From NCBI GenBank assembly GCA_019638805.1, contig JAHBTA010000004.1:124001-188000 (forward strand): DNA of 64,000 nt, read 5' to 3'. Positions 6,048-56,022 of the stretch are shown here, piece by piece. The position numbers were made by a program, and so were the translations under genes. Within the stretch, counting starts at the first letter, position 1; every line of letters begins with the position of its first letter. Source of the DNA: Microbacteriaceae bacterium (lineage in GTDB: Bacteria > Actinomycetota > Actinomycetes > Actinomycetales > Microbacteriaceae). The notes beneath the pieces are model-generated. The model was not told the DNA's origin. It saw nothing but the letters and a program-made list of their open reading frames with translations, and ran no database searches.

Positions 6048-6143
6048 CCAAATGCAGGAGATTTGTGGCGCTTGATGCTGGGAGGCCTTCAATTCCGGGG
6101 GAGCCGCACAGGCATCCCGCAGAATCTCCTGCATTTGGTCAAC
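6043..6143. repeat. REPIN-like inverted-repeat element, copy 2
   Basis: 101 bp with perfect 21-bp terminal inverted repeats (6043-6063 and 6123-6143) containing GACCAAATGCAGGAGATT. The roughly 59-bp interior has no evident similarity to the other copies. It lies between the converging ATL and ABC-exporter genes and contributes the TGA stop of ATL. Confidence 0.85.
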
Positions 6144-38024: not shown

Positions 38025-40051
38025 GCCCCGCCGCCCCTCCCGCCGAAGCGCGCAGCACGGGCGAGACGCGCCCCGAGATCCTCGTCCTGCGCGGCATCGC
38101 GATCCTGGCCATCCTCGTCCACCACCTGTGGCAGGGAAGGCTTCCGGGCGGGTTCGCGGCCCTGGATGTGTTCTTCGTGATCTCCGGGTATCTCGTCACC
38201 CGCATCCTGTTCGGGATGCGGGAGCGCGGCGGCATCGACATCTGGGCCTATCTGGCGCGACGCGCCCGCCGGATCCTGCCGAGCGCGATCACGGTCCTCC
38301 TGGCCTGCCTGGTGGGCATGTTCGCCTTCGTCTCGATCACCGACTGGGGTCGGACGGCAGGCGAGCTGCTGGCCTCCGCGGTCTTCATGGAGAACTGGGC
38401 GCTCATCGCGGCCGACCTGGCCTACGCCGCGCCGGACAGCGCGACTGCGCTGCAGCACTACTGGACGCTCGCGGTCGAGGCCCAGTTCTACGTCGCCTGG
38501 GCGCTCCTCATGATGGTGCTGCTGGGCCGCGGGGCCGCGTTCGGTGCGCACCGGCGGCGGGCGGGCGCCATCGGCATCGCGGTCGTACTCGCGATCTCCC
38601 TGGCGGTCTCGGTCGTCTGGTGCGCCCTGGCCCCGGTCTCCGGCTACCTCTCCACGGCGACGCGGATCTGGGAGCTCGCGGCCGGCGGGCTCCTCGCGGT
38701 GCTGGTGCGCCGCATCCCGCCGCTGCGCGTCGGCGCTCCGCTCGCGATCGCCGGGTGGGCGCTCATCGCGGGCTCCCTGGTGCTGCTGAACACCTCGATG
38801 GCCTGGCCCGGCTTCCTCGCGGTGATCCCGGTCGCCGGCGCGGTGCTCGTCATCGCGGCGGGGGTGCCGCACGACGCGCCCCGGCTGCGCCGGCTCACCG
38901 ACAACCGGTTCACGCGCGACCTGGCCGACAGCTCCTACGCGATCTACCTGTGGCACTGGCCCATCCTGGTGTTCGCCGACCGCGCGCTCGGGCATCCGCC
39001 CGGAACCCCCGAGAAGATCGGCATCGTGGTCGCGTCCCTCGCGCTCGGCTGGGCGACGACCGTGCTCGTGGAGCGGCCGATCCGGTTCGGGCCGCTCGCG
39101 CGCGCCCGCCCCCTGGCCACGCTCACCGTCGCAGCGCTGGCGATCTCGGCGGTCGTCGTGCCCGCGCTGGCGGTGCGGCATGTCATGCAGCGCACGACCG
39201 AGCTCTACACGGCGGTCGCGCAGGCGCCCGCCGCCGATCTGTGCGCCGGCGCCGAGGCGCGGATGCCGGGGGCGGACTGCGTGGACGGTCCGTACCCGGG
39301 GCTCTCGCCCGATCCGCTGGGCGAATGGGAGGAGGTGTCGGTGCTGCACGCCATGGGCTGCGCGACCGACAACATTCTGCCCGACGTGCACCCCTGCGAC
39401 TTCGGCGACCCGGACGGCGATGTGCACGTGGCCCTGGTCGGGGACTCCCACGCCATGAAGCTGTGGGCAGCCCTGAAGGCGATCGCCGAGAGCCAGGGGT
39501 GGCGGCTCACCACCTTCCTCAAGGCGCAGTGCGAGTTCACGCTGCCCGAGGTGGAGGGCACCTCCGGCTGTCCGGAGTGGCGCGCCGAGGTGGCCGAACG
39601 GCTGCGCGACGACGGCCCGTGGGACCTCGTCGTCACAACCGGCGCCGCCCACGCGACCGGGGGCGAGGGTGCGGCGGAGGGCTACCGCGCGGTGTGGCAG
39701 CCACTCATCGACGCCGGGGCGCGCCTCATCGTCGTGCACGACAACCCCTACCTGGAGGGCGATGTCCGGGCGTGCATCGCCGACCACCTCGACGACCCCT
39801 CCGCCTGCGACAACCCGCGCAGCGCGTCCTTCCTCCCCGACACCATGGCCGACGCCGCGCGGGACCTCCCGGGCGCCCACGTGGTCGATCTCACCGAGCT
39901 GTTCTGCGACGCCACCACGTGCTTCGCGGTCGTCGGGGGCGTCATCACGCACCGCGACTTCACGCACATCACGGACGAGTTCTCGCGCTCGTACGCGCCC
40001 TACCTCGCCGCGAAGCTCGCGGCCATCGCGCCGGAGCTCTTCTCCGGCTAG
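38021..40051 (+). CDS. OafA-type acyltransferase with C-terminal SGNH domain
   Basis: 676 residues. Residues about 15-370 form the acyltransferase-3 membrane domain (EILVLRGIAILAILVHHLW, then ALDVFFVISGYLVTRILF and HYWTLAVEAQFY). After a linker, the C-terminal 230 residues form an extracytoplasmic SGNH/GDSL domain with VALVGDSHAMKLW (nucleophile Ser) and a catalytic DFTHIT near the end. The layout matches OafA/OatA enzymes, in which the SGNH domain places the acyl group on the polymer. GTG 38021 overlaps the upstream stop. Last gene of the operon; it converges on glpD with a shared CTAG. Confidence 0.9.
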   Translation: MSPAAPPAEARSTGETRPEILVLRGIAILAILVHHLWQGRLPGGFAALDVFFVISGYLVTRILFGMRERGGIDIWAYLARRARRILPSAITVLLACLVGMFAFVSITDWGRTAGELLASAVFMENWALIAADLAYAAPDSATALQHYWTLAVEAQFYVAWALLMMVLLGRGAAFGAHRRRAGAIGIAVVLAISLAVSVVWCALAPVSGYLSTATRIWELAAGGLLAVLVRRIPPLRVGAPLAIAGWALIAGSLVLLNTSMAWPGFLAVIPVAGAVLVIAAGVPHDAPRLRRLTDNRFTRDLADSSYAIYLWHWPILVFADRALGHPPGTPEKIGIVVASLALGWATTVLVERPIRFGPLARARPLATLTVAALAISAVVVPALAVRHVMQRTTELYTAVAQAPAADLCAGAEARMPGADCVDGPYPGLSPDPLGEWEEVSVLHAMGCATDNILPDVHPCDFGDPDGDVHVALVGDSHAMKLWAALKAIAESQGWRLTTFLKAQCEFTLPEVEGTSGCPEWRAEVAERLRDDGPWDLVVTTGAAHATGGEGAAEGYRAVWQPLIDAGARLIVVHDNPYLEGDVRACIADHLDDPSACDNPRSASFLPDTMADAARDLPGAHVVDLTELFCDATTCFAVVGGVITHRDFTHITDEFSRSYAPYLAAKLAAIAPELFSG

Positions 40052-41775
40052 TGCAGGGTCTCCACGTCGGGGACGCGCAGCCGCACCGCGTCGGCCGAGG
40101 CGTCATCCGGCTGGTCCTGGGAGGCGCGCTCCGCCTCGACGCGACCCAGGTAGTTGGCCACCTCGTCGTCGATGCGCGCGGTGTCCCAGCCGAGCGCCTC
40201 GCCCATGAGCCGGGCAGCGACCGGGGCGGCGCTCACGCCGCGGTCCCACGCCTCGATCGAGATGCGCGTGCGGCGGGCGAGCACGTCCTCCAGGTGCACG
40301 GCGCCCTCGTGCGTGGCCGCGTACACCACCTCGGCTCCGATGTAGTCGTCGGCGCCGGGCAGCGGATCGAGCAGCTCGGGCCGCTGGCGGATGAGGTCCA
40401 GCAGCTCGTCGGTCAGGACCCCGTAGCGGTTCAGCAGGTGCTCGACGCGCACCCGGTGCACACCGAACGCCCGCGCGATGCGGGCCCGCTTGTTCCAGGC
40501 GGCCTGGTACCCCTCCGCGCCGAGCAGGCCGATGTTCTCGGTGACGCTCGCGCTGACCTTGCCGTCCAGGGCGGCCACCGCCTCGTCGATGGCGTCCTTG
40601 GCCATGATCCGGTACGTCGTGAACTTGCCGCCCGCCACGACCACGAGGCCCGGCACCGAGTGCGCGACGATGTGCTCGCGGCTGAGCTTGCTGGTCTCCT
40701 CGCTCTCCCCCGCCAGGAGCGGCCGGAGCCCCGCGTAGACGCCCTCGACGTCGTCGCGCGTGAGCGGCACGGTCAGGACCTCGTTGACCCGCTCGAGCAG
40801 GTAGTCGATGTCCGCGGCCGTCGCCGCCGGGTGCGCCTTGTCGAGGTGCCAGTCGGTGTCGGTCGTCCCGATGAGCCAGTGCCTGCCCCACGGGATGACG
40901 AACAGAACGCTCTTCTCGGTGCGCAGCAGAAGCCCGAGCTTCGACTGGAACCGGTCGCGCGGGACCACCAGGTGGATGCCCTTCGAGGCGCGGACCTTGA
41001 ACTGCCCGCGCTCGCCCACCATCGCCTGGGTCTCGTCGGTCCACACGCCCGTCGCGTTGACCACCTGCTTTGCGTGGATCTCGAAGTGCTCGCCCGTCTC
41101 GATGTCGTGCGCCTGCACGCCGACCACGCGTTGCCCGACCTTGACGAAGCCCTCGACCCGCACGCGGCTGGCCACGTGGGCGCCGTAGAAGCTCGCCGTG
41201 CGGGCCAGCGTCGCGACGTAGCGCGCGTCATCGACCTGCGCGTCCCAGTAGGTGAGGCCACCGGTGAACGCGTCCGGGTGCAGGCTCGGCGCCGCGCGCA
41301 GCAGCTGCCGCCGCGTGAGGTGCCGGTGGTGCGGCACCCCCGGCGCGCGCAGGCCCGTGTAGCTGAACAGGTCGTAGAGCGTCATGCCCGCGCCGATGTA
41401 GAACCGCTCGACGATGGGCACCGTGAGCGGGTACAGGAACCGAATGGGCTTGACCAGATGCGGGGCGATGCGCTGCAGCAGGAGTCCGCGCTCGATGAGC
41501 GCCTCCCGCACGAGCCGGAAGTCGAGCTGCTCCAGGTACCGGATGCCGCCATGGATCAGCTTGGAGCTGCGGCTGCTGGTACCCGACCCCCAATCCCGGG
41601 CCTCGAGCATCCCGACCCGGAGGCCGCGGGTGACCGCGTCGAGCGCCGCGCCGGTGCCCACGATGCCGCCCCCGATGACGAGGACGTCGAGCTCGCGCTC
41701 GCGCATGCTGCGGAGGGCGGCCTCGCGCTCGGCGGGGCCCAGCCGGTTGGAGCGGGTGACGGGCGTGCTGGCCAT
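40048..41775 (-). CDS. glpD: Glycerol-3-phosphate dehydrogenase, FAD-dependent
   Basis: 575 residues; oxidises sn-glycerol-3-phosphate to dihydroxyacetone phosphate and feeds electrons to the quinone pool. FAD site VLVIGGGIVGTGAALDA, the GTSSRSSKLIHGGIRYLEQ block, substrate region GKFTTYRIMAKDAID and the C-terminal DAO_C domain are present. A -10-like TAGGCT (41787-41782) ends 6 nt before the ATG. It may use product of the GDPD at 24.6 kb. Confidence 0.95.
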   Translation of the reverse strand: MASTPVTRSNRLGPAEREAALRSMRERELDVLVIGGGIVGTGAALDAVTRGLRVGMLEARDWGSGTSSRSSKLIHGGIRYLEQLDFRLVREALIERGLLLQRIAPHLVKPIRFLYPLTVPIVERFYIGAGMTLYDLFSYTGLRAPGVPHHRHLTRRQLLRAAPSLHPDAFTGGLTYWDAQVDDARYVATLARTASFYGAHVASRVRVEGFVKVGQRVVGVQAHDIETGEHFEIHAKQVVNATGVWTDETQAMVGERGQFKVRASKGIHLVVPRDRFQSKLGLLLRTEKSVLFVIPWGRHWLIGTTDTDWHLDKAHPAATAADIDYLLERVNEVLTVPLTRDDVEGVYAGLRPLLAGESEETSKLSREHIVAHSVPGLVVVAGGKFTTYRIMAKDAIDEAVAALDGKVSASVTENIGLLGAEGYQAAWNKRARIARAFGVHRVRVEHLLNRYGVLTDELLDLIRQRPELLDPLPGADDYIGAEVVYAATHEGAVHLEDVLARRTRISIEAWDRGVSAAPVAARLMGEALGWDTARIDDEVANYLGRVEAERASQDQPDDASADAVRLRVPDVETLH

Positions 41776-41813
41776 GCGTCCAGCCTAGGACGGGCCGCCC
41801 CGCCCCGTCGGGC

Positions 41814-42935
41814 TCACACCTGGCGGTACGGCGCGACGACCACCTCGACGCGCTGGAACTCCTTGAGGTCGGAGTAGCCCGTCGTCGCCATCGAGCGGCG
41901 CAGGGCCCCGATGAGGTTGACCCGGCCGTCCGCCGACTCGGCCGGCCCGAACAGCAGCCGCTCGAGCGGCGCCAGGGTTCCGACCCGCACGCGCGTGCCG
42001 CGCGGCAGCTCGGGGTGGTGCGCCTCGGCGCCCCAGTGCCAGCCGCCGCCCGGCGCCTCCTCGGCGCGCGCCAGGGTGGAACCCAGCATGACCGCGTCGG
42101 CGCCGACCGAGACCGCCTTCACGATGTCCCCGCTCGTGCCCAGCCCTCCGTCGGCGATCACGTGCACGTAGCGGCCGCCGGACTCGTCGAGATAGTCGCG
42201 GCGTGCACCGGCGACGTCGGCCACCGCGGTCGCCATGGGCGCGTGGATGCCGAGCGTGCTGCGCGTCGTGGACGCGGCGCCGCCGCCGAAGCCGACGAGC
42301 ACGCCCGCCGCGCCCGTGCGCATGAGGTGCAGGGCGGCGGTATAGGTCGAGGCGCCGCCGACGATGACCGGGACGTCGAGCTCGTAGATGAACTTCTTCA
42401 GGTTGAGCGGCTCGACCCCCTTGGAGACGTGCTCGGCGCTGACTGTGGTGCCGCGGATCACGAACAGGTCGACCCCCGCATCCACGACGGTCTTGTAGTG
42501 CTCCTGCGTGCGCTGGGGGCTGAGCGCGCCCGCGACCGGGACGCCGCTCGCGCGGATCTCGGCGAGCCGCTGGGTGATGAGCTCGGGCTTGACCGGCTCG
42601 GCGTAGATCTCCTGCATGCGCCGCGTGGCGTCCTGGTCCGAGAGCTCGCGCAGCTCGACGAGCACGCGGCCGGGGTCGTCATAGCGCGTCCACACGCCCT
42701 CCAGGTCGAGCACCCCGAGGCCCCCGAGCCGCCCGATGGCGATCGCGGTGTCCGGGCTCATGACCGAGTCCATGGGCGCCGCGAGAACCGGGATCTCGAA
42801 CGTGAAGGCGTCGATGGTCCAGCTCACGCTCACGTCCTGCGGGTCGCGCGTGCGCCTGCTCGGCACGACCGCGATGTCGTCGAACGCGTACGCGCGGCGA
42901 GCGCGCTTGGCGCGGCCGATCTCGATGTCGCTCAC
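41814..42935 (-). CDS. guaB3: GuaB3 family IMP dehydrogenase-like protein
   Basis: 373 residues with an IMPDH/GMPR-type TIM barrel but no CBS domains. FDDIAVVPSRRTRDPQDV, VLAAPMDSVMSP, GFGGGAASTTRSTLG and VHVIADGGLGTSGDI are typical of actinobacterial GuaB3. The loop that carries the catalytic Cys in IMPDH (GSICTTR in guaB of this window) reads GGAASTTR here, so it is unlikely to act as a normal IMP dehydrogenase. The GTG start (42933-42935) lies 6 nt after a -10-like TAGGCT whose TAG is also the ABC-F stop codon. Confidence 0.9.
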   Translation of the reverse strand: MSDIEIGRAKRARRAYAFDDIAVVPSRRTRDPQDVSVSWTIDAFTFEIPVLAAPMDSVMSPDTAIAIGRLGGLGVLDLEGVWTRYDDPGRVLVELRELSDQDATRRMQEIYAEPVKPELITQRLAEIRASGVPVAGALSPQRTQEHYKTVVDAGVDLFVIRGTTVSAEHVSKGVEPLNLKKFIYELDVPVIVGGASTYTAALHLMRTGAAGVLVGFGGGAASTTRSTLGIHAPMATAVADVAGARRDYLDESGGRYVHVIADGGLGTSGDIVKAVSVGADAVMLGSTLARAEEAPGGGWHWGAEAHHPELPRGTRVRVGTLAPLERLLFGPAESADGRVNLIGALRRSMATTGYSDLKEFQRVEVVVAPYRQV

Positions 42936-42944
42936 CGGCTCAGC

Positions 42945-44633
42945 CTACCGAGCGCGCGCCACGCGACCCTCGTCCCAGACGGGCTCGTCGGATTCGTACA
43001 CCCGGCCGTCCTGGCCGAACACCAGGAACCGGTCGAAGCTGCGCGCGAACCACCTGTCGTGGGTCACGGCGAGCACCGTGCCCTCGAAGCGCTCCAAGGC
43101 ATCCTGCAGGGCCTCGGCCGACACCAGGTCGAGGTTGTCGGTCGGCTCGTCGAGCAGCAGCATCGTGACCCCGCTGAGCTCGAGCAGCAGGATCTGGAAC
43201 CGGGCCTGCTGCCCACCGCTCAGCGACTCGAACACCTGGTCGGCCTGGTCGACGAGGCCGTAGCGGTGGAGGGCGCGGCTGGCCTCTTCGCGCCCCCGAC
43301 CGTCGCGCTCGTCGTCGCCGCGCGCCAGGATCTCGAGCAGCGTGCGGCCGAGCAGCTCGGGGTGCTCGTGGGCCTGGGCGAACCAGCCGGGAACGACCCG
43401 GGCGCCGAGCTTCGCGGTGCCGGTGTGCGCGACCGGTTCGAGGGTCTGGCCGACCGTGGTGACGTGCCCCTCGCGCCGGTCGGGGTCGGTGCCGCCGAGG
43501 GCGAGCAGCCGCAGGAAGTGCGACTTGCCCGAACCGTTGCTGCCCAGCACGCCGACGCGCTCGCCGAACCAGACCTCGAGGTCGAACGGCTGCATGAGGC
43601 CGGTCAGCTCGAGAGCTTGGCAGACGAGTGCGCGGCGACCCGTGCGTGCGCCTTTCAGGCGCAGCGCCAGGTTCTGCTCGAGCGGGCGCACCTGCGGCGG
43701 ACCCGCCTCCTCGAACTTGCGCAGCCGGGTCTGCGCGGCGCGGTACCGGCTCGCGAAGCCGTCGTTCGCCGTCGCCTTGACCTTCAGGGTCGCCACCAGC
43801 TGCTTCAGCTTCGCGTGCTGTTCGTCCCAGCGGCGCTTCAGCTCGTCGAGCCGGCTCATGCGGTCGTCGCGGGCCGCGTGATAGGTGGCGAAGCCGCCGC
43901 CGTGCGTCCAGGTCGTGTTGCCCGCGGCGCCGAGCTCGAGGGTGATGATGCGGTCGGCCGCCTGCGCGAGCAGCTCGCGGTCGTGGCTGACCAGCAGCAC
44001 GGTCTTCTGGGTGGTGCGCAGGGCCTCCTCCAGCCAGCGCTTGCCGGGCACGTCGAGGTAGTTGTCGGGCTCGTCGAGCAGCAGCACCTGGTCGGGCCCG
44101 CGCAGCAGCGCCTCGAGCGCGAGCCGCTTCTGCTCGCCGCCGCTCAGCGTCGTCACCTCGCGGTACTTCGCGCGTTCGAAGGGGATGCCGAGGGCCGCCA
44201 TCGTGCACTGGTCCCAGACGGTCTCCTGGTCGTACCCGCCCGCATCGGAGTAGTCGGCGAGCGCCGTCGCATACGCCATCTGGTTGTCGGTGGTGTCGGC
44301 CTCGATCAGCGCGTTCTCGGATGCGTCGAGCCTGCGGGCGGCATCGCGCACGGCGGGAGGGGCCACCGAGACGAGCAGATCGCGCACCGTGGACTCGTCG
44401 CGCAGGTGCCCGATGAACTGGTCCATGACACCCAGGCCGCCGTCGATGCTGACGACCCCGGCATCCGCCTTCTGCTCGCCGCGGATGATGCGCAACAGCG
44501 TCGACTTGCCGGCCCCGTTCGCGCCGATGAGCGCGCTCGTGGTGCCCCCGCCGACGCGGAAGCTCACCTCGTCGAGCAGCGGGCGGCCGTCGGGCAGGGT
44601 GAGCGAGACGGCGCTCACGTCGATGTAGCCCAT
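42945..44633 (-). CDS. ABC-F family ATP-binding protein
   Basis: 562 residues: two ATPase domains in one chain and no membrane segments, the ABC-F layout. Domain 1 has IGANGAGKSTLL, TLSGGEQKRLAL and LLLDEPDNYLD; domain 2 has LGSNGSGKSHFLRLL, LSGGQQARFQIL and LLLDEPTDNLD. The linker between them (about 245-325) is charged and helical. ABC-F proteins act on ribosomes, as translation factors or as antibiotic protection proteins; which applies here is not clear. ATG 44631-44633 is chosen because GGAGGAGAG lies immediately upstream; a -10-like TAGCCT farther upstream implies a normal leader. Confidence 0.88.
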   Translation of the reverse strand: MGYIDVSAVSLTLPDGRPLLDEVSFRVGGGTTSALIGANGAGKSTLLRIIRGEQKADAGVVSIDGGLGVMDQFIGHLRDESTVRDLLVSVAPPAVRDAARRLDASENALIEADTTDNQMAYATALADYSDAGGYDQETVWDQCTMAALGIPFERAKYREVTTLSGGEQKRLALEALLRGPDQVLLLDEPDNYLDVPGKRWLEEALRTTQKTVLLVSHDRELLAQAADRIITLELGAAGNTTWTHGGGFATYHAARDDRMSRLDELKRRWDEQHAKLKQLVATLKVKATANDGFASRYRAAQTRLRKFEEAGPPQVRPLEQNLALRLKGARTGRRALVCQALELTGLMQPFDLEVWFGERVGVLGSNGSGKSHFLRLLALGGTDPDRREGHVTTVGQTLEPVAHTGTAKLGARVVPGWFAQAHEHPELLGRTLLEILARGDDERDGRGREEASRALHRYGLVDQADQVFESLSGGQQARFQILLLELSGVTMLLLDEPTDNLDLVSAEALQDALERFEGTVLAVTHDRWFARSFDRFLVFGQDGRVYESDEPVWDEGRVARAR

Positions 44634-44755
44634 CTCTCCTCCTGCCATGCGGGCAAAGCCGACCAGGCTACCGGATGAGCCGGCGCAGCGGCACGACCGC
44701 ACTCGTGCCGCGGAGCGGACGCGCCGCCGAGGCGGCGGCGCGCGAAGATAGAGCT

Positions 44756-45889
44756 GTGGACGTCGAAGCCGAGCCCCTGGAACGCCTGCGCCAGCGCACC
44801 TCGGAGAAGTGGCGGGCGTACCCGCCCGACGTGCTTCCGCTGTTCGTCGCCGAGATGGACTACCCGCTGGCCCCGCCGATCGTCGACGCCGTGGTCGAGC
44901 GGGTGCGCGCCTCCGACTCCGGCTACGTGTCGGGGGCGGCGGATGCGGGGGTCGCCTTCGCCGGGTTCGCCGAGCGCCGCTGGGGGTGGCACCTCGACCC
45001 GTCCCGGGTGCGCATCACCACCGATGTGAGCGTCGCGATCGTCGAGGTGCTGCGCCGGGTGATCTCGCCGGGCGACGGCGTCGTCATCACCTCGCCGGTG
45101 TATGCGCCGTTCGCCGATCTCGTCGCCGAGGCCGGCGGTCGGGTCGTCGACGTGCCGCTCGGGCCGGATCATGCGCTCGACATCGGGGCGATCGACGCGG
45201 CCCTCGGTGATGGAGCCCGAGCCGTTCTGATCAGCAACCCGCACAACCCGCTCGGCCTGCCGCATCCCGCCGACGCGCTGGCCAGGCTCGCCGCGATCGC
45301 CGCCGCGCACGGGGCGCATGTCGTCGCCGACGAGATCCACGGTCCGCTGACCTGGGACGCGAGCGCGTTCACCCCGTTCGCCTCGGTGTCGGATGCGGCG
45401 CGCGAGTGGGGCGTGACCGTCACCTCCGCGAGCAAGGCCTGGAACCTCGCCGGGTTCAAGTGCGCGCTCATGGTGGCAGCATCCGATCGGGGCCTCGCGG
45501 TGCTCGACGGCATGTTCGAGGAGGTGACCTTCCGCACGTCGATCCTCGGGTATCACGCGACGGTGGCGGCGTTCACGCACGGCGACGAGTGGCTCGACGG
45601 GGCGATCGCGGCGATCCGCTCGTCGTCGCAGCTGCTCGAAAATCTGCTCGCCTCGGAACTGCCCGAGGTCGGGTACACGCCCCCGAGCGCCTCGTACCTC
45701 GCGTGGCTCGACATGCGCGGGCTCGCGTGGGGGGACGACCCCGCGGGGCATGCCCTGGAGGCGGGACGTGTGGCGCTCAACTCAGGCCTGACGTTCGGGC
45801 CTTCCGGCGCGGGTTTCGCGCGCCTGAACTTCGCGTGCTCCCCCGAGGTCCTCGGCGAGGCCGTCCGCCGCCTGGCCGCCGCCCGCTGA
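44756..45889 (+). CDS. PatB/MalY-type PLP aminotransferase, probable C-S lyase
   Basis: 377 residues of fold-type I PLP enzymes. The N-terminal SEKWRAYPPDVLPLFVAEMDYPLAPPI is the MalY/PatB signature; ISNPHNPLG, VVADEIHGPLTW and the PLP-lysine block TSASKAWNLAGFKCA follow. MalY/PatB enzymes mostly cleave cystathionine or other cysteine conjugates to pyruvate, ammonia and a thiol. GTG 44756 is chosen since homology starts at once and no other start lies closer. It converges with guaB across a hairpin terminator. Confidence 0.88.
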   Translation: MDVEAEPLERLRQRTSEKWRAYPPDVLPLFVAEMDYPLAPPIVDAVVERVRASDSGYVSGAADAGVAFAGFAERRWGWHLDPSRVRITTDVSVAIVEVLRRVISPGDGVVITSPVYAPFADLVAEAGGRVVDVPLGPDHALDIGAIDAALGDGARAVLISNPHNPLGLPHPADALARLAAIAAAHGAHVVADEIHGPLTWDASAFTPFASVSDAAREWGVTVTSASKAWNLAGFKCALMVAASDRGLAVLDGMFEEVTFRTSILGYHATVAAFTHGDEWLDGAIAAIRSSSQLLENLLASELPEVGYTPPSASYLAWLDMRGLAWGDDPAGHALEAGRVALNSGLTFGPSGAGFARLNFACSPEVLGEAVRRLAAAR

Positions 45890-45902
45890 GCCCGCGGGGG
45901 TG

Positions 45903-45934
45903 GCTGCTGTCATGGCTCCCTCTGTGACAGCAGC
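45903..45934. terminator. Bidirectional terminator between PatB-like gene and guaB
   Basis: GCTGCTGTCA (45903-45912) and TGACAGCAGC (45925-45934) form a perfect 10-bp stem with a 12-nt loop. It fills the 54-bp gap between two converging genes, so it can serve both. Confidence 0.65.
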
Positions 45935-45943
45935 AGAGCGGGG

Positions 45944-47552
<1,609 letters not shown>

Positions 47553-47665
47553 TACGGAGGTCGATGTGTGGATGTGGCAACACCACGGCACCGCACGGAA
47601 GGCAAACGTCAACGCGGACGGTCCCCACCGGGCTCCGTCGCGCTCACCCGAGACTTGGAGGTTCG

Positions 47666-49009
47666 GTGACCATCACCCGATCAGCCCTCGCCCGGAGGGT
47701 GCCCAGGACGATCGGGGTTCTGCTCGCGCTGTTCACTGCGGCGTTCGCGGTCATCCTCATGACCGTGAGCCCCGCTTCCGCCGCGCCCTCCGCGGACGGC
47801 GACCCGTACCGCGTGAGCGGCAACGTGCAGCTCGATGGCGAACCCCTCGAAGGCGTCCGGCTCACCATCGACGGGCCCGGCGGCCTGCAGGAGGTGGTGA
47901 CGGACGCGAACGGGCAGTGGAAGGTCGGCGTCCCCGAGAAGAACGAGACGTACGTCGTGACCCTCGACGAGGAGACCCTCCCGGCGGGCATCGCCGTGGT
48001 GGACCCCGAGGATGACACGCCCAACGTCAAGGAGGCCGAGGTCGGCCAGGGCGGCCGCGTCACGGTCAACTTCTTCATCGGCGAGGGCGAACGGCACGTG
48101 ACGAGCTTCTTCGACCAGTTCGTCCAGCGTTCGGTGACCGGCATCAGCTTCGGCCTCATGCTCGCACTCGCGGCGGTGGGCCTGACTCTGGTCTACGGGA
48201 CGACCGCGATCGCCAACTTCGCGCACGCCGAGATGGTGACCTTCGGGCCGATCGTCGTGGGCGCGGTCGCCGCGGCGGCCACCGCGGCGATGCCGATCGA
48301 GGCGGCGCTGGCCGTCGCCATCGTCATCGCGATCGTGCTGAGCGCGGGCCTGGGGCTCTTCCTCGACGTGGTGATCTGGCGACCGCTGCGGCGGCGGCGG
48401 GTCGGCGTGGTGCAGCTCATGATCGTGAGCATCGGGCTCTCGCTCACCATGCGCTACCTCTTCCAGTTCTTCATCGGCGGGGGCACCACGCAGCTCCCGT
48501 TCGCGGCCATGGAGAAGATCCCGCTGTTCGGCGTCGTTCAGATGAGCTGGATCGACATCGCCAGCATCGTCATCAGCATCGTCGTGATCGTCGCGTTCGC
48601 CCTCTGGCTGAGCTACTCGCGGGTGGGCAAGGCGACCCGCGCGATCTCCGACAACTCGCCGCTCGCCGCCGCATCCGGCATCGACGTGGATGCCGTGGTG
48701 CGGGTGGTCTGGGTGCTCGCCGGCGCGATGGCCGGTCTCGCCGGGATCCTGTACGCCTACTACCGTCCGGGGCTCAAGTGGGACATGGGCACCCAGGTGC
48801 TGCTGCTCATGTTCGCCGCCGTCACCCTCGGCGGTCTGGGCACCGCCTTCGGCGCTCTCATCGGATCGATCATCGTGGGTCTGCTCGTCGAGCTGTCCAC
48901 GTTGTGGATCCCGGCGGACCTCAAGTTCGCGGGCGCGCTGTTCATCCTCATCGTCATCCTGCTGTTCCGCCCACAGGGCATCCTCGGCCGCCGAGAAAGG
49001 ATCGGGTAG
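47666..49009 (+). CDS. livH: LivH-type branched-chain amino acid permease with N-terminal secreted domain
   Basis: 447 residues, about 150 more than usual LivH. Residues 1-40 form a signal-peptide-like segment (RTIGVLLALFTAAFAVIL, ending SPASAA). Residues about 46-138 look like a carboxypeptidase-regulatory/transthyretin-like beta domain (YRVSGNVQLDGEPLEGVRLT, VTDANGQWKVGVP). From about 150 the standard permease begins: GISFGLMLALAAVGLTLVYG, then IANFAHAEMVTFG, with about eight helices. The added domain would lie outside the membrane, near the substrate-binding protein. GTG 47666 with GGAGG upstream gives a clean signal peptide; ATG 47564 in the same frame is an alternative. Confidence 0.85.
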   Translation: MTITRSALARRVPRTIGVLLALFTAAFAVILMTVSPASAAPSADGDPYRVSGNVQLDGEPLEGVRLTIDGPGGLQEVVTDANGQWKVGVPEKNETYVVTLDEETLPAGIAVVDPEDDTPNVKEAEVGQGGRVTVNFFIGEGERHVTSFFDQFVQRSVTGISFGLMLALAAVGLTLVYGTTAIANFAHAEMVTFGPIVVGAVAAAATAAMPIEAALAVAIVIAIVLSAGLGLFLDVVIWRPLRRRRVGVVQLMIVSIGLSLTMRYLFQFFIGGGTTQLPFAAMEKIPLFGVVQMSWIDIASIVISIVVIVAFALWLSYSRVGKATRAISDNSPLAAASGIDVDAVVRVVWVLAGAMAGLAGILYAYYRPGLKWDMGTQVLLLMFAAVTLGGLGTAFGALIGSIIVGLLVELSTLWIPADLKFAGALFILIVILLFRPQGILGRRERIG

Positions 49010-49015
49010 CACCCC

Positions 49016-49985
<970 letters not shown>

Positions 49986-49996
<11 letters not shown>

Positions 49997-51008
49997 CGCA
50001 CCGGGCAAGAAGAAGCCCACGGCATCCCGGAAGAAGGCGGCGGTCGCCGAGGCTCCCCGGCCCTCCGCCCCGAAGCAGCGGGAGAAGTCGACCGGCCTGC
50101 ACATCGGCGAGGCGGCGCCCGGCGTGGCCAAGGTCGACCCGATCATCGTCGCGGACGGCGTGCGCCGCACCTTCGGCGGTCTCACCGCCGTCGATGTGGA
50201 GCACGTCGAGATCCCGCGCGGCGCCATCACGGCGCTCATCGGGCCCAACGGGGCGGGCAAGACCACCCTGTTCAACCTGCTGACCGGGTTCGACAAGCCG
50301 GATGCCGGCAGCTGGGTCTTCGACGGCAGCTCGCTGTCCGGCGTCCCGGCCTTCAAGGTGTCACGGATGGGTCAGGTGCGCACCTTCCAGCTGACCAAGG
50401 CGCTGGGCCTGCTCACGGTCGTCGAGAACATGAAGCTCGGCGCGAAGGGGCAGAAGGGCGAGAAGTTCTGGCACAGCCTCGTTCCCGCCCTCTGGAGGGC
50501 GCAGGACGACGAGATCGAGGAGCGGGCCATGCGCCTGCTCACCAAGTTCAAGCTGGACGCCAAGGCTGACGACTTCGCTGCCTCGCTCTCGGGCGGGCAG
50601 CGCAAGCTGCTCGAGATGGCGCGCGCGCTCATGAGCGAGCCGCAGCTGGTCATGCTGGACGAACCCATGGCGGGGGTGAACCCGGCGCTGACCCAGTCGC
50701 TGCTCGACCACATCCTCGACCTGAAGGACGAGGGCATGACGGTGCTCTTCGTCGAGCACGACATGCACATGGTGCGCCACATCGCCGACTGGGTCATCGT
50801 CATGGCCGAGGGGCGCGTGGTCGCCGAGGGCGACCCGGTCACCGTGATGAAGAACCCGGCGGTCGTGGACGCCTACCTGGGCGCGCATCAGGACGTCGAT
50901 CTGGGCGTGGTCACCGGTCGCTACGGCGACGGGAAGGCCGGGGCCGGCGTGACTGCCGCGCAGATCGAGGCGGAGGGCCGGGCCGAGTTGGAGGACGAGG
51001 AGAAGTGA
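49986..51008 (+). CDS. livG: LivG-type ATPase
   Basis: 340 residues. The first ~50 residues are a Lys/Ala/Pro-rich extension absent from most LivG; the ATPase proper starts at IIVADGVRRTFGGLTAVD. Walker A LIGPNGAGKTTLFNLL, signature LSGGQRKLLEMARAL and Walker B LVMLDEPMAGVNP with H-loop VEHDMHMV are intact. The C-terminus is also extended and acidic. The start is TTG 49986 within livM; homology does not fix the exact start because the extension is variable. Confidence 0.92.
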
Positions 51009-51745
51009 GCACAGCGACCGCGACGACGACCCCCGTCGTCCTCATCGACAACGTGGTGGCCGGCTACCTGCCGGGCGTCAACATCCTCAACGGCTGCTCG
51101 CTGGTGGCCGAGCAGGGCGAGCTCATCGGCATCATCGGACCCAACGGAGCCGGTAAGTCGACCCTGCTGAAGGCCATCTTCGGTCAGGTCAACATCCGCA
51201 GCGGCACGGTCAACCTGGAGGGCGAGGACATCACCGGCCTGCGCGCGAACAAGCTCGTTCAGCGCGGGGTGGGCATGGTGCCCCAGACCAACAACGTGTT
51301 CCCCTCGCTCACCATCGAGGAGAACCTGCAGATGGGGCTCTATCAGCGTCCGAAGGCCTACCGGGAGCGCCTCGAGTTCGTGACCGGCATCTTCGCCGAG
51401 CTGGGCAAGCGCCTCAAGCAGCGCGCGGGCTCGCTCTCCGGCGGCGAGCGCCAGATGGTGGCCATGTCGCGCGCGCTCATGATGGACCCCAAGGTGCTGC
51501 TGCTCGACGAGCCCAGCGCGGGCCTGTCCCCCGTGCGGCAGGACGAGGCGTTCATCCGGGTCTCGGAGATCAACAAGGCCGGCGTGACGACCATCATGGT
51601 CGAGCAGAACGCGCGCCGCTGCCTGCAGATCTGCGACCGCGGCTACGTGCTCGACCAGGGCCGCGACGCCTACACGGGCTCGGGGCGGGAGCTGCTGAAC
51701 GACCCGAAGGTCACCGAGCTCTACCTCGGAACCCTCGGCGCGTAG
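51005..51745 (+). CDS. livF: LivF-type ATPase
   Basis: 246 residues, normal length. Walker A IIGPNGAGKSTLLKAIF, QTNNVFPSLTIEENLQMG, signature LSGGERQMVAMSRAL and Walker B VLLLDEPSAGLSP. GTG 51005 overlaps the livG stop (GTGA). Pairs with LivG to power amino acid import. A GC hairpin follows at 51761-51784. Confidence 0.94.
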   Translation: MSTATATTTPVVLIDNVVAGYLPGVNILNGCSLVAEQGELIGIIGPNGAGKSTLLKAIFGQVNIRSGTVNLEGEDITGLRANKLVQRGVGMVPQTNNVFPSLTIEENLQMGLYQRPKAYRERLEFVTGIFAELGKRLKQRAGSLSGGERQMVAMSRALMMDPKVLLLDEPSAGLSPVRQDEAFIRVSEINKAGVTTIMVEQNARRCLQICDRGYVLDQGRDAYTGSGRELLNDPKVTELYLGTLGA

Positions 51746-51760
51746 AGCCCGCACGACGAC

Positions 51761-51784
51761 GGCCCCCGGCGCGAGTCGGGGGCC
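51761..51784 (+). terminator. Terminator after livF
   Basis: GGCCCCCG (51761-51768) pairs perfectly with CGGGGGCC (51777-51784) around an 8-nt loop, 15 bp after the livF stop. There is no T-tract, as is common in high-GC actinobacteria. Confidence 0.6.
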
Positions 51785-51802
51785 GCTCTGCGTCCGGCTC
51801 GC

Positions 51803-51897
51803 GACCGAATGCAGGAGATCGTGAGCGGATGCGGGGCCGGGGTCCCGCATCCATTGCGTCGGAGCTGGGGCCGCTCACGAATCTCCTGCATTCGGTC
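51803..51897. repeat. REPIN-like inverted-repeat element, copy 3
   Basis: Terminal 17-bp inverted repeats GACCGAATGCAGGAGAT (51803-51819; inverted copy 51881-51897) match copies 1 and 2 except A to G at one position. Inside them a second perfect pair, GTGAGCGG/CCGCTCAC, extends the stem. The interior (about 60 bp) is unrelated to the other copies but contains its own 9-bp hairpin (GGATGCGGG/CCCGCATCC). It lies between the converging livF and livJ genes. Confidence 0.85.
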
Positions 51898-51928
51898 AAC
51901 CGCCAGCGGATGACGGGGGAACGGGAAA

Positions 51929-51952
51929 GGCCCCGGTCCGAAGACCAGGGCC
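51929..51952 (-). terminator. Terminator after livJ
   Basis: GGCCCCGGT (51929-51937) and ACCAGGGCC (51944-51952) form a 9-bp stem with one mismatch; on the minus strand it is followed by TTTCCCGTT. It lies 24 bp after the livJ stop. Confidence 0.65.
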
Positions 51953-51975
51953 CCTCCGTGACGGGACGAGCGCTA

Positions 51976-53238
51976 TCAGCCGTTGTAGGCCGAGTAGTTG
52001 TTGTCGTCACCGTACTGGTAGATGCCGATCGACGCCTCGGTCGGGTCGCCGACCTCGTCGAACGTGATCGGACCGGAGATGCCGTCGTAATCGGCGACGC
52101 CGCCGCCCACGATGATGGCAGCGCACTCCGCGTACGAGGTGCACTTGGTGCCGTTGCCCGAGCCGCCGGAGACCTCCTGCAGCTTGCCCGCGATGTCACC
52201 CGGGTCGGTCGAGCCGGCCGCCAGGGCGCCCAGCGCGATCAGCGTGGCGGCGTCGAAGGACTCGGCCGCGTAGCTGTAGTCGGTCAGCGCGTCGCCGCCG
52301 GTCGACGAGAGGAACTCGTCGAGCGAGTCGGTGAAGCCCTTGATCGAGTCGACCGTGAGGCCGGGCAGGGTGCCCTTCGCCCCGGTGAGCGAGCCCGCCG
52401 GGAAGGTGTCGCCGAAGTTGGCCAGGTTGCCGTCGACGAAGTACATCTTGTCGGCCGGGAACTTGCCGAACAGCGCCGGCAGGATCGTCTTGATCTCGTC
52501 GAACGTGATCAGCGCGAGCGCGTCCGGGTCCGCAGCCAGCACGGTGCTGATCTGCGAGTCGAACGTGGTGTCACCCGTGTTGTACGTCGGCGCAGCGACG
52601 ACGGTGCCGCCGGCGGCCTCGAAGGCCTCCGTGACGTACTTCGCCAGGCCGGTGCCGTACGAGTCGTTCAGCACCAGGATGCCCAGGGTCTGGTTCCCGT
52701 CCTCCGCGATGAGGTTGCCGAGCACCTGGCCCTGCAGCACGTCCGACGGCGCGGTGCGGAAGTACAGCCCGTTGTCGTCGTAGGTGGTGAAGGCGTCCGA
52801 GGTGTTGGCAGGCGAGAACTGGATCACGCCGGCGCCGGTCACCTGGTCGATGAACTGCAGCGAGACACCCGACGACGCGGCACCGATGATGGCCGAGACG
52901 TCCTCGCCGAGCAGGCGGGGGATCTCGGTCTCGTATGCCTTGTTGTCGGTGTCGCCGGAGTCGCCGTAGACGACGTCGAGGCTCAGCCCGGTGTCGGCGG
53001 TGGCCTCGTTGACCAGCGACGCCGCGTAGGCGACACCGGCCTCCTCGGGCGGCCCGAGGAAGGCGAGGTTACCGGTCTGGGGCAGCGCGGTACCGATCTT
53101 GAGGGCCAGGTCCTGGACCTCGCCGCCACCGCCGCCGTTGTCGGTGGCCTGGCAACCGCTGAGGACCAGCGCAGCCGACGCGAAGACCGCGCCCGCCCCG
53201 ATGGTGGCCTTCAGAGACCGCGAACGAATGATGCTCAT
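51976..53238 (-). CDS. livJ: Branched-chain amino acid ABC transporter substrate-binding lipoprotein
   Basis: 420 residues. The signal peptide ends in a lipobox (ALVLSGC, Cys about 28), so it is anchored to the outer face of the membrane. The rest is a periplasmic-binding-protein type 1 fold of the Leu/Ile/Val family: LKIGTALPQTGNLAFLGPP, AIIGAASSGVSLQFIDQV and ILVLNDSYGTGLAKY. It lies on the opposite strand from livHMGF and converges with livF, so it is expressed from its own promoter. GGAG precedes the ATG by 4 nt. Amino acid specificity cannot be told. Confidence 0.92.
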   Translation of the reverse strand: MSIIRSRSLKATIGAGAVFASAALVLSGCQATDNGGGGGEVQDLALKIGTALPQTGNLAFLGPPEEAGVAYAASLVNEATADTGLSLDVVYGDSGDTDNKAYETEIPRLLGEDVSAIIGAASSGVSLQFIDQVTGAGVIQFSPANTSDAFTTYDDNGLYFRTAPSDVLQGQVLGNLIAEDGNQTLGILVLNDSYGTGLAKYVTEAFEAAGGTVVAAPTYNTGDTTFDSQISTVLAADPDALALITFDEIKTILPALFGKFPADKMYFVDGNLANFGDTFPAGSLTGAKGTLPGLTVDSIKGFTDSLDEFLSSTGGDALTDYSYAAESFDAATLIALGALAAGSTDPGDIAGKLQEVSGGSGNGTKCTSYAECAAIIVGGGVADYDGISGPITFDEVGDPTEASIGIYQYGDDNNYSAYNG

Positions 53239-53392
53239 GTCGCTCCTTGTTCTTCTTACAGGACAGCGGCGCCGGTGGGGCCGACGCCTGCAACTGACAC
53301 TAACGAAGTAGGCGCCGGAATACGACGAATGGCAGTCACAAGGGCGTAACGGGTCGAGATCGTTCCAGGGGGCCCGAAACGTCCCACTCGGC

Positions 53393-54328
53393 TCACACCG
53401 GCTCGGTGACGACCCGTCTCTGCGCCCGCCCGTTCGTGAGCATGTCGATCGTGAGCACGACGAGGGCCACCCAGACCAGGCCGAAGCCGATCCAGCGCTC
53501 GGTCGGCATGGCCTCGTGCAGCACGACGACCCCGATGAGGAACTGGATGACGGGGGCGAAGTACTGGGTGAGGCCGATGTAGACCAGCGGCAGGCGACGC
53601 GCGCCCGCCGCGAAGAGCAGCAGCGGGATGGCGGTCAGCGCCCCGGCGCACAGCGACAGCAGCAGGTGCGGGGTGCCCGCCGTGCCCGTCACGATGCCGC
53701 CGCCCGCCGTGGCCACGACGACGAGCACGACGATGGCGACCGGAGCGAGAACCGCGGTCTCCAGGGTCAGGCCGCTCACGGCATCCACCTCATCGCCCAC
53801 GCGCTTCTTGATGTAGCCGTAGATGCCGAACGAGAAGGCCAGCACGAGGCCGATCCAGGGCACCGATCCGTATCCGATGGTGATGACCAGGATGGCGAGC
53901 GCCGACACCGCGACCGCGACCCACTGCGCGGGCCGCAGCCGCTCGCGCAGGAACACCACCCCCAGCAGAACGGTCACGATCGGGTTGATGAAGTACCCGA
54001 GCGACCCCTCCACCACGTGTCCGCCGAGGACCGCGACGACGTACACCTGCCAGTTGACGTAGATGAGGGCTCCGGCGAGCGTCATGGCGCCCAGCACGCG
54101 GCGCTTGCGCGCCAGAGCCAGGAACGGCCGCCAGGCGCGTGTCACGGTCAGCAGGAGCGCGCAGAAGCCCAACGCCAACAGGATGCGCAGGGCGACGACC
54201 TCCCACGGCCCGGTGGGCGCCAGCAGCACGAAGTAGAGCGGCAGCAGCCCCCACAGCACGTACGCCGCGATCGCGTACCCGAGCCCGGCGCCGAAGCCCC
54301 TGGGGGGAGGTGGTGGGGCTGCGGGCAC
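53393..54328 (-). CDS. rarD: RarD protein, EamA/DMT transporter
   Basis: 311 residues with ten membrane helices in two EamA repeats. GLGYAIAAYVLWGLLPLYF near the start, INWQVYVVAV-like VNWQVYVVAVLGGHVVEGSL and YFINPIVTVLLGVVFLRERL are typical of RarD. The substrate is unknown (chloramphenicol-sensitivity annotation in relatives is old and uncertain). GTG 54326-54328 is supported by a -10-like TACGCT (54340-54335) 6 nt upstream. Confidence 0.88.
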   Translation of the reverse strand: MPAAPPPPPRGFGAGLGYAIAAYVLWGLLPLYFVLLAPTGPWEVVALRILLALGFCALLLTVTRAWRPFLALARKRRVLGAMTLAGALIYVNWQVYVVAVLGGHVVEGSLGYFINPIVTVLLGVVFLRERLRPAQWVAVAVSALAILVITIGYGSVPWIGLVLAFSFGIYGYIKKRVGDEVDAVSGLTLETAVLAPVAIVVLVVVATAGGGIVTGTAGTPHLLLSLCAGALTAIPLLLFAAGARRLPLVYIGLTQYFAPVIQFLIGVVVLHEAMPTERWIGFGLVWVALVVLTIDMLTNGRAQRRVVTEPV

Positions 54329-54367
54329 CCGGTCAGCGTAGTCCCGACCGGACGGCCCGCGGGACGC

Positions 54368-54400
54368 GAAGAGCCCCGTGGCAGCACCACGGGGCTCTTC
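54368..54400 (-). terminator. Terminator after groES
   Basis: GAAGAGCCCCGTGG and CCACGGGGCTCTTC form a perfect 14-bp stem with a 5-nt loop, 20 bp after the groES stop and before rarD. One of the strongest hairpins in the window. Confidence 0.8.
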
Positions 54401-54420
54401 GGCGGTATTCGGTGGGGCGG

Positions 54421-54717
54421 TTACCGCACCACGATCGCGAGCACGTCGCGCGCGGACAGGACCAGCAGGTCCTCCCCGTTGAGCTTGACCTCGGTGCCGC
54501 CGTACTTCGAGTAGATGACCTTGTCGCCGACCGCGACGTCGAGGGGCACGCGGTTGCCGTTGTCGTCGATGCGGCCGGGGCCCACGGCCACGACCTCGCC
54601 CTCCTGGGGCTTCTCCTTCGCGGTGTCGGGGATCACGAGACCCGACGCCGTGACCTCCTCGGCCTCGACCTGGCGGATGACGATGCGATCTTCGAGCGGC
54701 TTGATGGAGACCGACAC
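54421..54717 (-). CDS. groES: GroES co-chaperonin
   Basis: 98 residues, the normal size. [40 protein letters not shown] and [15 protein letters not shown] are the family blocks, with the mobile loop at about 18-34. Caps GroEL during protein folding. The start is GTG 54715-54717 after AGAGG. No groEL follows; a strong terminator does, so groES is a single-gene unit here. Two CIRCE operators and a promoter (TTGAGA-17-TAGAGT) upstream show HrcA control. Confidence 0.96.
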
Positions 54718-54743
54718 GGATGACCTCTTTCTCAAAACTCCGG

Positions 54744-54770
54744 TTGGCACACTCCCTTCGAGAGTGCCAG
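54744..54770 (-). promoter_or_regulatory. CIRCE operator 1 of groES
   Basis: TTGGCACAC, 9 nt, GAGTGCCAG: an inverted repeat with correct CIRCE spacing and core (consensus TTAGCACTC-N9-GAGTGCTAA). It lies just downstream of the predicted transcription start, where HrcA would block elongation. Confidence 0.8.
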
Positions 54771-54774
54771 GACA

Positions 54775-54803
54775 ACTCTAGGGCATGATTAGCAGTCTCT
54801 CAA
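54775..54803 (-). promoter_or_regulatory. groES promoter
   Basis: On the minus strand TTGAGA (54803-54798), a 17-bp spacer and TAGAGT (54780-54775). The -35 box lies inside CIRCE 2, and CIRCE 1 lies just after the start of transcription. Confidence 0.7.
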
Positions 54804-54815
54804 CGCGAGTGCCAG
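54789..54815 (-). promoter_or_regulatory. CIRCE operator 2 of groES
   Basis: TTAGCAGTC, 9 nt, GAGTGCCAG. The left arm differs from consensus at one base. It overlaps the -35 region of groES and lies 31 bp before the divergent methyltransferase gene, which it might also affect. Confidence 0.75.
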
Positions 54816-54846
54816 AGGCGGGCGGATGCGCCGGTAGCGTTGCGTC

Positions 54847-56022
54847 ATGGACCTGGCCGAGCTGCGCGCCCTGCTCACGCCCGAGGGTCTGCGACTGCTC
54901 GACGAGGTCGGCACCATCGACGACTCCACGGATGTGGTGCGGGCGGTCTCGCGCCTGCGGGCCGCCGGGCACTCCCCCATCCTGGTCGCCGCCGTGCTCG
55001 GGCAGGCGCGGCTGCGCGCCCGCGCCGTGCCCAAGTTCGGCGACTTCGCGAGCCGCATGCTCTTCACCCCGGACGGCCTCGAGCAGGCCACCCGGCTGCG
55101 CGTCGCGGCCCTGCACGCCGGCCGGTTCGGCGACGCAGGCGTGGATGTCGTGGCCGACCTGGGCTGCGGCATCGGCGCCGACGCGCTCGCCTTCGCCGCC
55201 CTGGACCTCGGGGTCATCGCCGTGGAGCGCGACGAGCTCACGGCCGCCGTGGCCGCCTACAACCTCGCGCCGTTCCCGTCGGCGCGCGTCGAGCTGGGCA
55301 ACGCCGAGGACGCCGACCTGAGCGCGGTGGGCGGTGTCTTCCTCGACCCGGCACGGCGCTCCGCCGGGAGGCGGCTGAGCGATCCGGGGGACTGGTCGCC
55401 CCGGCTCGACTGGGCGCTCGAGCTCGCGCGCGAGCACCCGACCGGGATCAAGCTCGGCCCCGGGCTGCCTCGCGAGCTCATCCCCGACGGCGTCGAGGCG
55501 CAGTGGGTCTCGGTGGACCGCGAGGTCGTCGAGGCGACCCTGTGGTCGGGACCCCTGGCCCGCGAAGGCGTGGGGCGCGCGGCGCTCGTCCTGAGCGATG
55601 CGGGGGCGGTGGAGCTCACCTCCGAGGGCGACAGCGCGGATGCGGAGGCCGGGGCGCTGGGAGGCTACCTGCTCGAGCCGGATCGGGCCGTCATCCGCGC
55701 CCGGCTCATCGGCGACCTGGCGCGCTCGCTGGGCGGGCGGATGCTGGACCCGGAGATCGCCTGGATCACGGCCGACGACGAGCCGAGCACGCCCTTCGGT
55801 CAGGCGTTCCGGGTGATCGAGCGCTTCCCGCTCGACCTGAAGACGCTCAAGCGGGAGCTCGGCACGCGCGGCATCGGCACGCTCGAGATCAAGAAGCGCG
55901 GGGTCGACCTCGACCCGGCCGGCTTCCGTCAGCGGCTCGGCCTGCGCGGGGAGAACGCCGCCACCCTCGTGCTGACGCGTATCGCCGGGGAGCGGGCCGC
56001 GATCCTCGCCGAGCGGGTCTGA
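54847..56022 (+). CDS. Class I SAM-dependent methyltransferase with THUMP-like domain
   Basis: 391 residues. The SAM-binding domain (about 90-260) has VVADLGCGIGADALAFA (motif I), VIAVERDE and FLDPARRSAGRRL. The C-terminal region (about 300-390) matches the THUMP-like domain found in this family (FPLDLKTLKRELGTRGIGTL, then IKKRGVDLDPAGFRQRL). It probably methylates an RNA; the target is unknown. The ATG lies 6 nt after a -10-like TAGCGT (54835-54840). Divergent from groES. Confidence 0.85.
   Translation: MDLAELRALLTPEGLRLLDEVGTIDDSTDVVRAVSRLRAAGHSPILVAAVLGQARLRARAVPKFGDFASRMLFTPDGLEQATRLRVAALHAGRFGDAGVDVVADLGCGIGADALAFAALDLGVIAVERDELTAAVAAYNLAPFPSARVELGNAEDADLSAVGGVFLDPARRSAGRRLSDPGDWSPRLDWALELAREHPTGIKLGPGLPRELIPDGVEAQWVSVDREVVEATLWSGPLAREGVGRAALVLSDAGAVELTSEGDSADAEAGALGGYLLEPDRAVIRARLIGDLARSLGGRMLDPEIAWITADDEPSTPFGQAFRVIERFPLDLKTLKRELGTRGIGTLEIKKRGVDLDPAGFRQRLGLRGENAATLVLTRIAGERAAILAERV

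Follow-up and report, generated by a model that had tools for sequence, protein, structure and literature searches.

A predicted exported beta domain in front of the LivH-type permease of Actinomycetota

Introduction

The closest described system to the importer considered here is LivHMGF of E. coli (HAAT family), with which it shares the permease core of LivH, the genes livM, livG and livF, and a LivJ-type binding protein. A second relative is UrtB, the urea homologue, which according to PMC3098086 lacks the N-terminal helix of BtuC-type permeases. Because LivH and UrtB permeases are without this first helix and begin outside the membrane, the addition of an exported domain is possible; a permease family of this kind can presumably accept such a domain at its N-terminus with the core unchanged. 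An outside domain covalently joined to the permease also occurs in OpuA-type ABC importers, in which, according to PMC11065425, the fused domain is the substrate-binding domain itself. In the locus described below the binding protein LivJ is a separate product and the domain joined to LivH is a beta-sandwich of 95 amino acids. A literature search covering titles and the beginnings of abstracts, with most subscription journals outside its scope, found no paper on a LivH beta domain.

We analysed a stretch of 64,000 nucleotides (the window) from the genome of a Microbacteriaceae bacterium (GCA_019638805.1, contig JAHBTA010000004.1, positions 124,001 to 188,000). A sequence-only reading of this stretch had proposed that its LivH carries an added, secreted beta domain.

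Results

The livH locus and its family assignment

The features of the locus are collected in Table 1. The permease part of LivH matched PF02653 (BPD_transp_2) at residues 159-430 (E 8.8e-37; 127.1 bits against a cut-off of 26.8) but reached neither the equivalog cut-off for E. coli-type LivH (NF008011, 109.3 bits against 379) nor that for UrtB (TIGR03409, 121.4 bits against 250.3). The E. coli LivH model, which has 308 positions, aligned to the protein only from residue 149. Structural comparison of the LivH model gave alignments with BtuC-type permeases (1l7v, Z 16.3; HmuU, Z 14.8, from residue 150), and a search of a copy of the PDB for sequence relatives of the permease with solved structures found none. 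By family match the importer, its substrate included, is predicted to be of the branched-chain-amino-acid type, with LivJ matching binding-protein families at the sequence level.

Table 1. Position of the importer genes and of the parts of LivH within the window.
Feature	Position	Strand	Description and basis
Ribosome-binding site of livH	47657..47661	+	GGAGG just 5' of the GTG start at 47666; sequence
livH	47666..49009	+	447-aa permease, branched-chain-amino-acid type, with N-terminal extension; translation and Pfam
Signal peptide of LivH, residues 1-39	47666..47782	+	A-S-A then A, cleavage predicted; hydrophobic core, K/R-rich n-region, [AVSG]xA motif
Extracytoplasmic beta-sandwich domain, residues 46-140	47801..48085	+	AF2 model, fold matches, Pfam
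Short linker, residues 141-147	48086..48106	+	AF2 pLDDT drops to about 67 in block 141-150
LivH permease core, residues 148-447	48107..49006	+	N-out, C-in; PF02653, BtuC-like fold, loop charges
livM	49016..49996	+	Second permease subunit, no extra domain; ORF list, Pfam
livG	49986..51008	+	ATPase; ORF list, Pfam
livF	51005..51745	+	ATPase; ORF list, Pfam
livJ	51976..53238	-	Substrate-binding lipoprotein, convergent with the operon; Peripla_BP_6, lipobox-like LSGC in translation

All the neighbours expected of an importer, livM, livG, livF and a binding protein, are present at this locus, and the arrangement was found to be well kept among the orthologs described below. In loci of sufficient reach livM lies next to livH in 213 of 213, livG follows in 149 of 154 and livF in 146 of 151; a convergent livJ was found in 131 of the 150 group loci that were long enough, and a few loci have livJ together with livF and livG on the opposite strand. 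The LivJ start is lipobox-like in 104 of 123 loci, with a median distance of about 27 residues from the cysteine to the fold (measured in 112 of 130 loci with the domain). Upstream, and divergent from livH, lies a gene that from its sequence we take to be guaB-like. In LivG, about 50 residues precede the ATPase domain (window 49986-50140); the part of this N-terminal extension beside the ATPase domain shows a PGxxKxDxI/L-like motif in most of 16 loci viewed, the rest being variable.

The extension is translated and under selection

A longer open frame begins at TTG 47525. A wrongly chosen start and an untranslated upstream region were both rejected on comparison with close relatives (21 sequences, window included). 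The segment directly 5' of the start is conserved and the sequence farther upstream is not; this pattern, together with the GGAGG at 47657-47661, excluded TTG 47525 and gave GTG 47666 as the reading start, the start codon among relatives being GTG, ATG or TTG. The mismatch rates at codon positions 1, 2 and 3 were 0.154, 0.143 and 0.396 in the domain and 0.176, 0.102 and 0.376 in the permease, with median dN values of 0.158 and 0.18, respectively. The N-terminal domain is translated and, among close relatives, is under purifying selection as strong as that on the permease. The extent proposed from the letters, 47666-48120, was exact, the GTG following GGAGG and the permease part beginning at 48120. 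Gene callers that trim livH to the permease part would drop a real domain.

The domain is predicted to be a beta-sandwich outside the membrane

A full-length AF2 model was computed from alignment A1, which held 45 of the 57 orthologs then assembled, near-duplicates and the masked L011 being omitted. Block pLDDT was 74-93 across residues 51-140, with seven strands (48-56, 65-70, 73-78, 84-89, 95-100, 121-125 and 131-138). The domain modelled in isolation from alignment A2 (72 sequences, the window and 71 of 120 non-redundant domains) gave a pLDDT of 92.2 and a pTM of 0.84. Foldseek returned a best E of 7.4e-5 for the modelled domain, and VIA Z scores over the listed matches were 8.4-10.8 (UafA, a staphylococcal adhesin, 10.8, SdrD 10.3, CnaB 9.4, carboxypeptidase D 9.3 and 8.8, transthyretin 8.4). 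As modelled, the domain is a beta-sandwich of the prealbumin-like fold seen in Cna-B, SdrD-B, carboxypeptidase D and transthyretin. It differs from CarboxypepD_reg, SdrD_B, Cna-B and transthyretin-like domains of the same fold in its setting, since it occurs as one module attached N-terminally to an ABC permease. At the sequence level, residues 50-100 of the window protein matched the N-terminal part of CarboxypepD_reg (E 1.3e-4), below the curated cut-off of PF13620 (23.9 bits against 32.3); the same family matched 70 of the 72 domains at E 0.01 or better (best 2.3e-11), and SdrD_B matched 31 of 72 at the same threshold.

Across the 72 domains the best conserved positions were Gly83, Pro106, Tyr96, Leu105, Gly52, Pro90, Val64 and Gly72, and the conserved residue types were mainly Gly, Pro, Tyr, Trp and Leu-Pro. 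These residues look structural, with no catalytic set apparent in the alignment, and the domain is probably not catalytic. The isopeptide bond of Cna-B requires a Lys, an Asn and an acidic residue; in a comparison of whole alignment columns, none of those conserved at 55% or more in the LivH domains was Lys or Asn. A cysteine pair, perhaps forming a disulfide, lies a little ahead of the first strand in some divergent orthologs (L011, L013, L014, L017, L108 and L126).

The segment before the domain has the characters of a type I signal peptide by our home-made scoring: a basic n-region (mean 3.06 K/R and 0.43 D/E), a hydrophobic core, and small residues at -3 and -1. Wherever a core was detected the [AVSG]xA motif was present too (207 of 207 orthologs, against 175 expected from shuffling). 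It evolves fast, with an amino acid difference of 0.70 against 0.21 in the permease (21 relatives), and in the LivH model pLDDT falls below 50 at residues 34-44. By the positive-inside pattern, the model helices and the loop charges of the permease (WRPLRRRR after helix 3, SRVGKATR after helix 5, RPQGILGRRER at the C-terminal end) place its N-terminus outside and its C-terminus inside. The sequence-only reading had thus been right in several respects: in seeing a signal-peptide-like segment, in placing the extra domain outside the membrane, in expecting it to be folded, and in naming a carboxypeptidase-regulatory/transthyretin-type fold, to which the nearest solved structures of the AF2 model belong. 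The two outcomes that it had named as refuting, a prediction with no folded domain and a region upstream of the permease that escapes translation, were both looked for, and neither was obtained.

The domain is ancient in one actinobacterial group of LivH

The sequence-only reading had regarded the fusion as a departure from usual LivH proteins, which start directly at the first helix. This holds against other LivH groups. The second LivH-type permease of the same genome (303 aa) begins at the first helix, as does LivH of other groups, and neither the alphaproteobacterial matches nor the paralogs that related genomes have in other groups showed the extra beta domain before the permease. It does not hold within the protein's own ortholog group. 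Some match was found in 35 of 40 genomes of relatives, at 50 loci in a collection of named genomes, in 156 of 393 genomes of the class at E 1e-45 or better, and in 43 of 246 genomes of the phylum at E 1e-60; these surveys exclude a fusion specific to this genome. The orthologs taken from the class are a subset of the stronger matches listed. A profile score of at least 240 was reached by 223 distinct permeases, 208 of them at 300 or more and 15 at 244-268. The domain is present in ten of the 15, which join the group and bring it to 218 orthologs; in the remaining five (L163-L167) the permease has a direct start or is preceded by unrelated sequence. The survey of carrier lineages that had been called for thus found the domain in 213 of the 218 orthologs examined across Actinomycetota, among the matches listed. 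Named carriers include Microbacterium, Agromyces, Salinibacterium, Homoserinibacter, Terrimesophilobacter, Nocardioides and Ornithinimicrobium.

The five orthologs without the domain are L018 and L109-L112, the latter from a single family (f32) with genomes of 7.6-9.7 Mb. All five retain a signal-peptide-like hydrophobic segment, followed in L109-L112 by a short tail, and for this reason we read their state as a loss and not as an original lack of the domain. A separate gene for the domain beside a domain-less livH was rejected, as no domain-like frame was found nearby in 11 loci (L018, L109-L112 and L163-L168). A tree was built by a quick method, with the root not inferred, from 91 permeases: roughly one in four of the orthologs with the domain, together with those that lack it. 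On this tree the presence of the domain required 3 state changes, compared with 27.7 in shuffles, and none of 500 shuffles gave a number as low. The simplest account of this pattern would be one gain and two losses. The domain is real, ancient and phylum-wide, in a variant of a known transporter. We are all but certain that the protein represents a form of LivH that is ancient in actinobacteria and whose added N-terminal beta-sandwich, exported by a Sec-type signal peptide, is held outside the membrane by a short link to the first helix.

The link itself varies. Its length was within four residues of that in the window protein in 135 of 205 orthologs measured (8 of the 213 domain-bearing orthologs were dropped for want of the motif); in 33 of 205 it was 30 or more residues longer, reaching 46 longer in other families; the long linkers are composed mostly of Gly, Glu, Ala, Ser, Pro and Asp. 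One ortholog, L172, has two tandem copies of the beta domain. An apparent second copy in L094 was a split match and was rejected.

An N-terminal addition was also evident in UrtB. In five of five alphaproteobacterial genomes examined (L279-L283), the permease part of the best UrtB was preceded by an open frame of 250-397 residues; inspection of the sequence by eye showed a plain signal peptide and helical-looking extension in L279 and L280, and the beta-domain profile found no match in the extensions of any of the five. The UrtB extension resembles that of LivH in being N-terminal but appears all-helical by eye rather than a beta-sandwich. The LivH/UrtB permease family thus seems to have acquired exported N-terminal additions on at least two occasions.

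The domain and LivJ show no special co-variation

Docking of LivJ by the domain, as suggested by the sequence-only reading, was examined through the co-variation of the two proteins. In a distance test on 109 non-redundant loci (of 123 complete loci, from 213), the partial r between domain and LivJ was 0.134, a value matched or exceeded in 3 of 999 permutations. It was no stronger than that with the cytoplasmic LivG (0.189), the other values being 0.16 for the permease, 0.085 for LivF and -0.08 for LivM, so that the correlation with LivJ is weak and unspecific. Mutual information with the domain, in pairs per 10,000 above z 4, was 21.2 for LivJ, 19.5 for the permease, 18.6 for LivM, 12.0 for LivG and 7.6 for LivF, from an under-powered sample of 123 loci (effective number 57); the gap between the outside partners and the ATPases is confounded, because LivG and LivF are more strongly conserved. 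Over long distances the median identity was 0.32 for the domain, 0.43 for LivJ and 0.50 for the permease. This faster divergence of the domain does not suggest a tight interface.

Family f32 (L109-L112) has lost the domain, yet retains livHMGF and livJ. The LivJ of L112 bears the start motif TGxLAF as in fused loci, and those of L109-L111 are 37-38% identical to LivJ of the window, inside the range of the fused families. A switch of LivJ type tied to the fusion was therefore rejected. Since orthologs without the domain have the same LivJ type, no co-variation of LivJ type with the fusion is visible, which was a check proposed by the sequence-only reading.

Discussion

Neither role suggested by the sequence-only reading, docking of LivJ or of the cell wall, is so far supported; for the wall, the one pointer is that the closest folds are common in Gram-positive surface proteins. 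The reading that we favour, while giving it somewhat less than an even chance, is that it serves as a membrane-proximal platform for docking or positioning the lipoprotein LivJ. LivJ would hang on a flexible, lipid-anchored tail, and a domain placed where the LivH-LivM pore opens would keep it near the pore or fix its orientation; with LivJ held in this way, delivery of substrate would be efficient in an envelope that has no confined periplasm. This reading is favoured because the domain is placed on the outer face and retained in nearly all orthologs, a lipoprotein LivJ constantly accompanies it, and mutual information is slightly higher with the outside partners. The co-variation tests above do not establish this role, and the long linkers of some orthologs imply that a fixed docking geometry is not required. 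A stronger version, which we think unlikely, is that the domain forms a third contact that captures or gates LivJ above the pore, with the helical extension of UrtB a different solution to the same problem. If so, capture or gating of LivJ would add to delivery a step that the E. coli-type system does not have, and one that suits an envelope lacking a closed periplasm. With a conserved, removable domain on one subunit and natural orthologs that lack it, docking in Gram-positive-type envelopes can be tested directly.

Alternatively, the domain could be a spacer or wall-facing module that shields the pore from the thick cell wall or touches peptidoglycan, with no contact to LivJ. In structure it comes closest to B-type domains from adhesins and pilins anchored to the wall (UafA, SdrD, CnaB), folds that are common in Gram-positive surface proteins, its conserved residues are mainly structural, and the variable linkers and the tandem pair in L172 would suit such a role. 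However, the matched fold is very common and so tells little of function, and among close relatives its conservation equals that of the permease, which exceeds what a passive spacer would lead one to expect; we regard this explanation, too, as having a minor share of the probability.

A further alternative concerns anatomy and can be combined with either a docking or a spacer role: the signal segment might remain uncleaved and take the place of the first helix of BtuC, so that the permease would have ten helices and the beta domain would be inserted in its first outer loop. Modelled by AF2 with the chain uncleaved, the protein does align to BtuC (1l7v) over residues 1-447, and all five domain-less orthologs still have the hydrophobic segment, with which unfused LivH proteins dispense. 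Against this, the range of an alignment says little about its middle, pLDDT is under 50 at residues 34-44, the [AVSG]xA motif was present in every ortholog with a detected core, and the segment diverges far faster than the permease, so that we consider a retained anchor rather improbable. Least probable of all is that the domain mainly aids the folding, insertion or stability of LivH, whose N-terminus must cross the membrane, and not transport as such: signal and domain travel together (the signal was found in 202 of 203 domain-bearing orthologs with a permease score of 300 or more) and losses of the domain are tolerated, but unfused LivH proteins insert without such help.

Other elements in the window and genome

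A palindromic intergenic element lies between livF and livJ (window 51803-51897) and again at 6050-6136. Its outer arms, GACCGAATGCAGGAGAT paired with its complement, are perfect over 17 nt and separated by 61 nt; the interior varies and is itself partly palindromic. No Rfam match was found in 40000-56000, the region that covers the copy between livF and livJ. In a search of 40 genomes, own genome included, the element was absent from the 39 relatives, among them one congener (77% complete); the own genome holds eight exact-ended copies, and a reversed control pattern gave none. Outside the window, the same genome contains a 2773-aa open frame (G000:C4:408412-412014) with nine CarboxypepD_reg-like matches, which from its sequence is probably a large surface protein.
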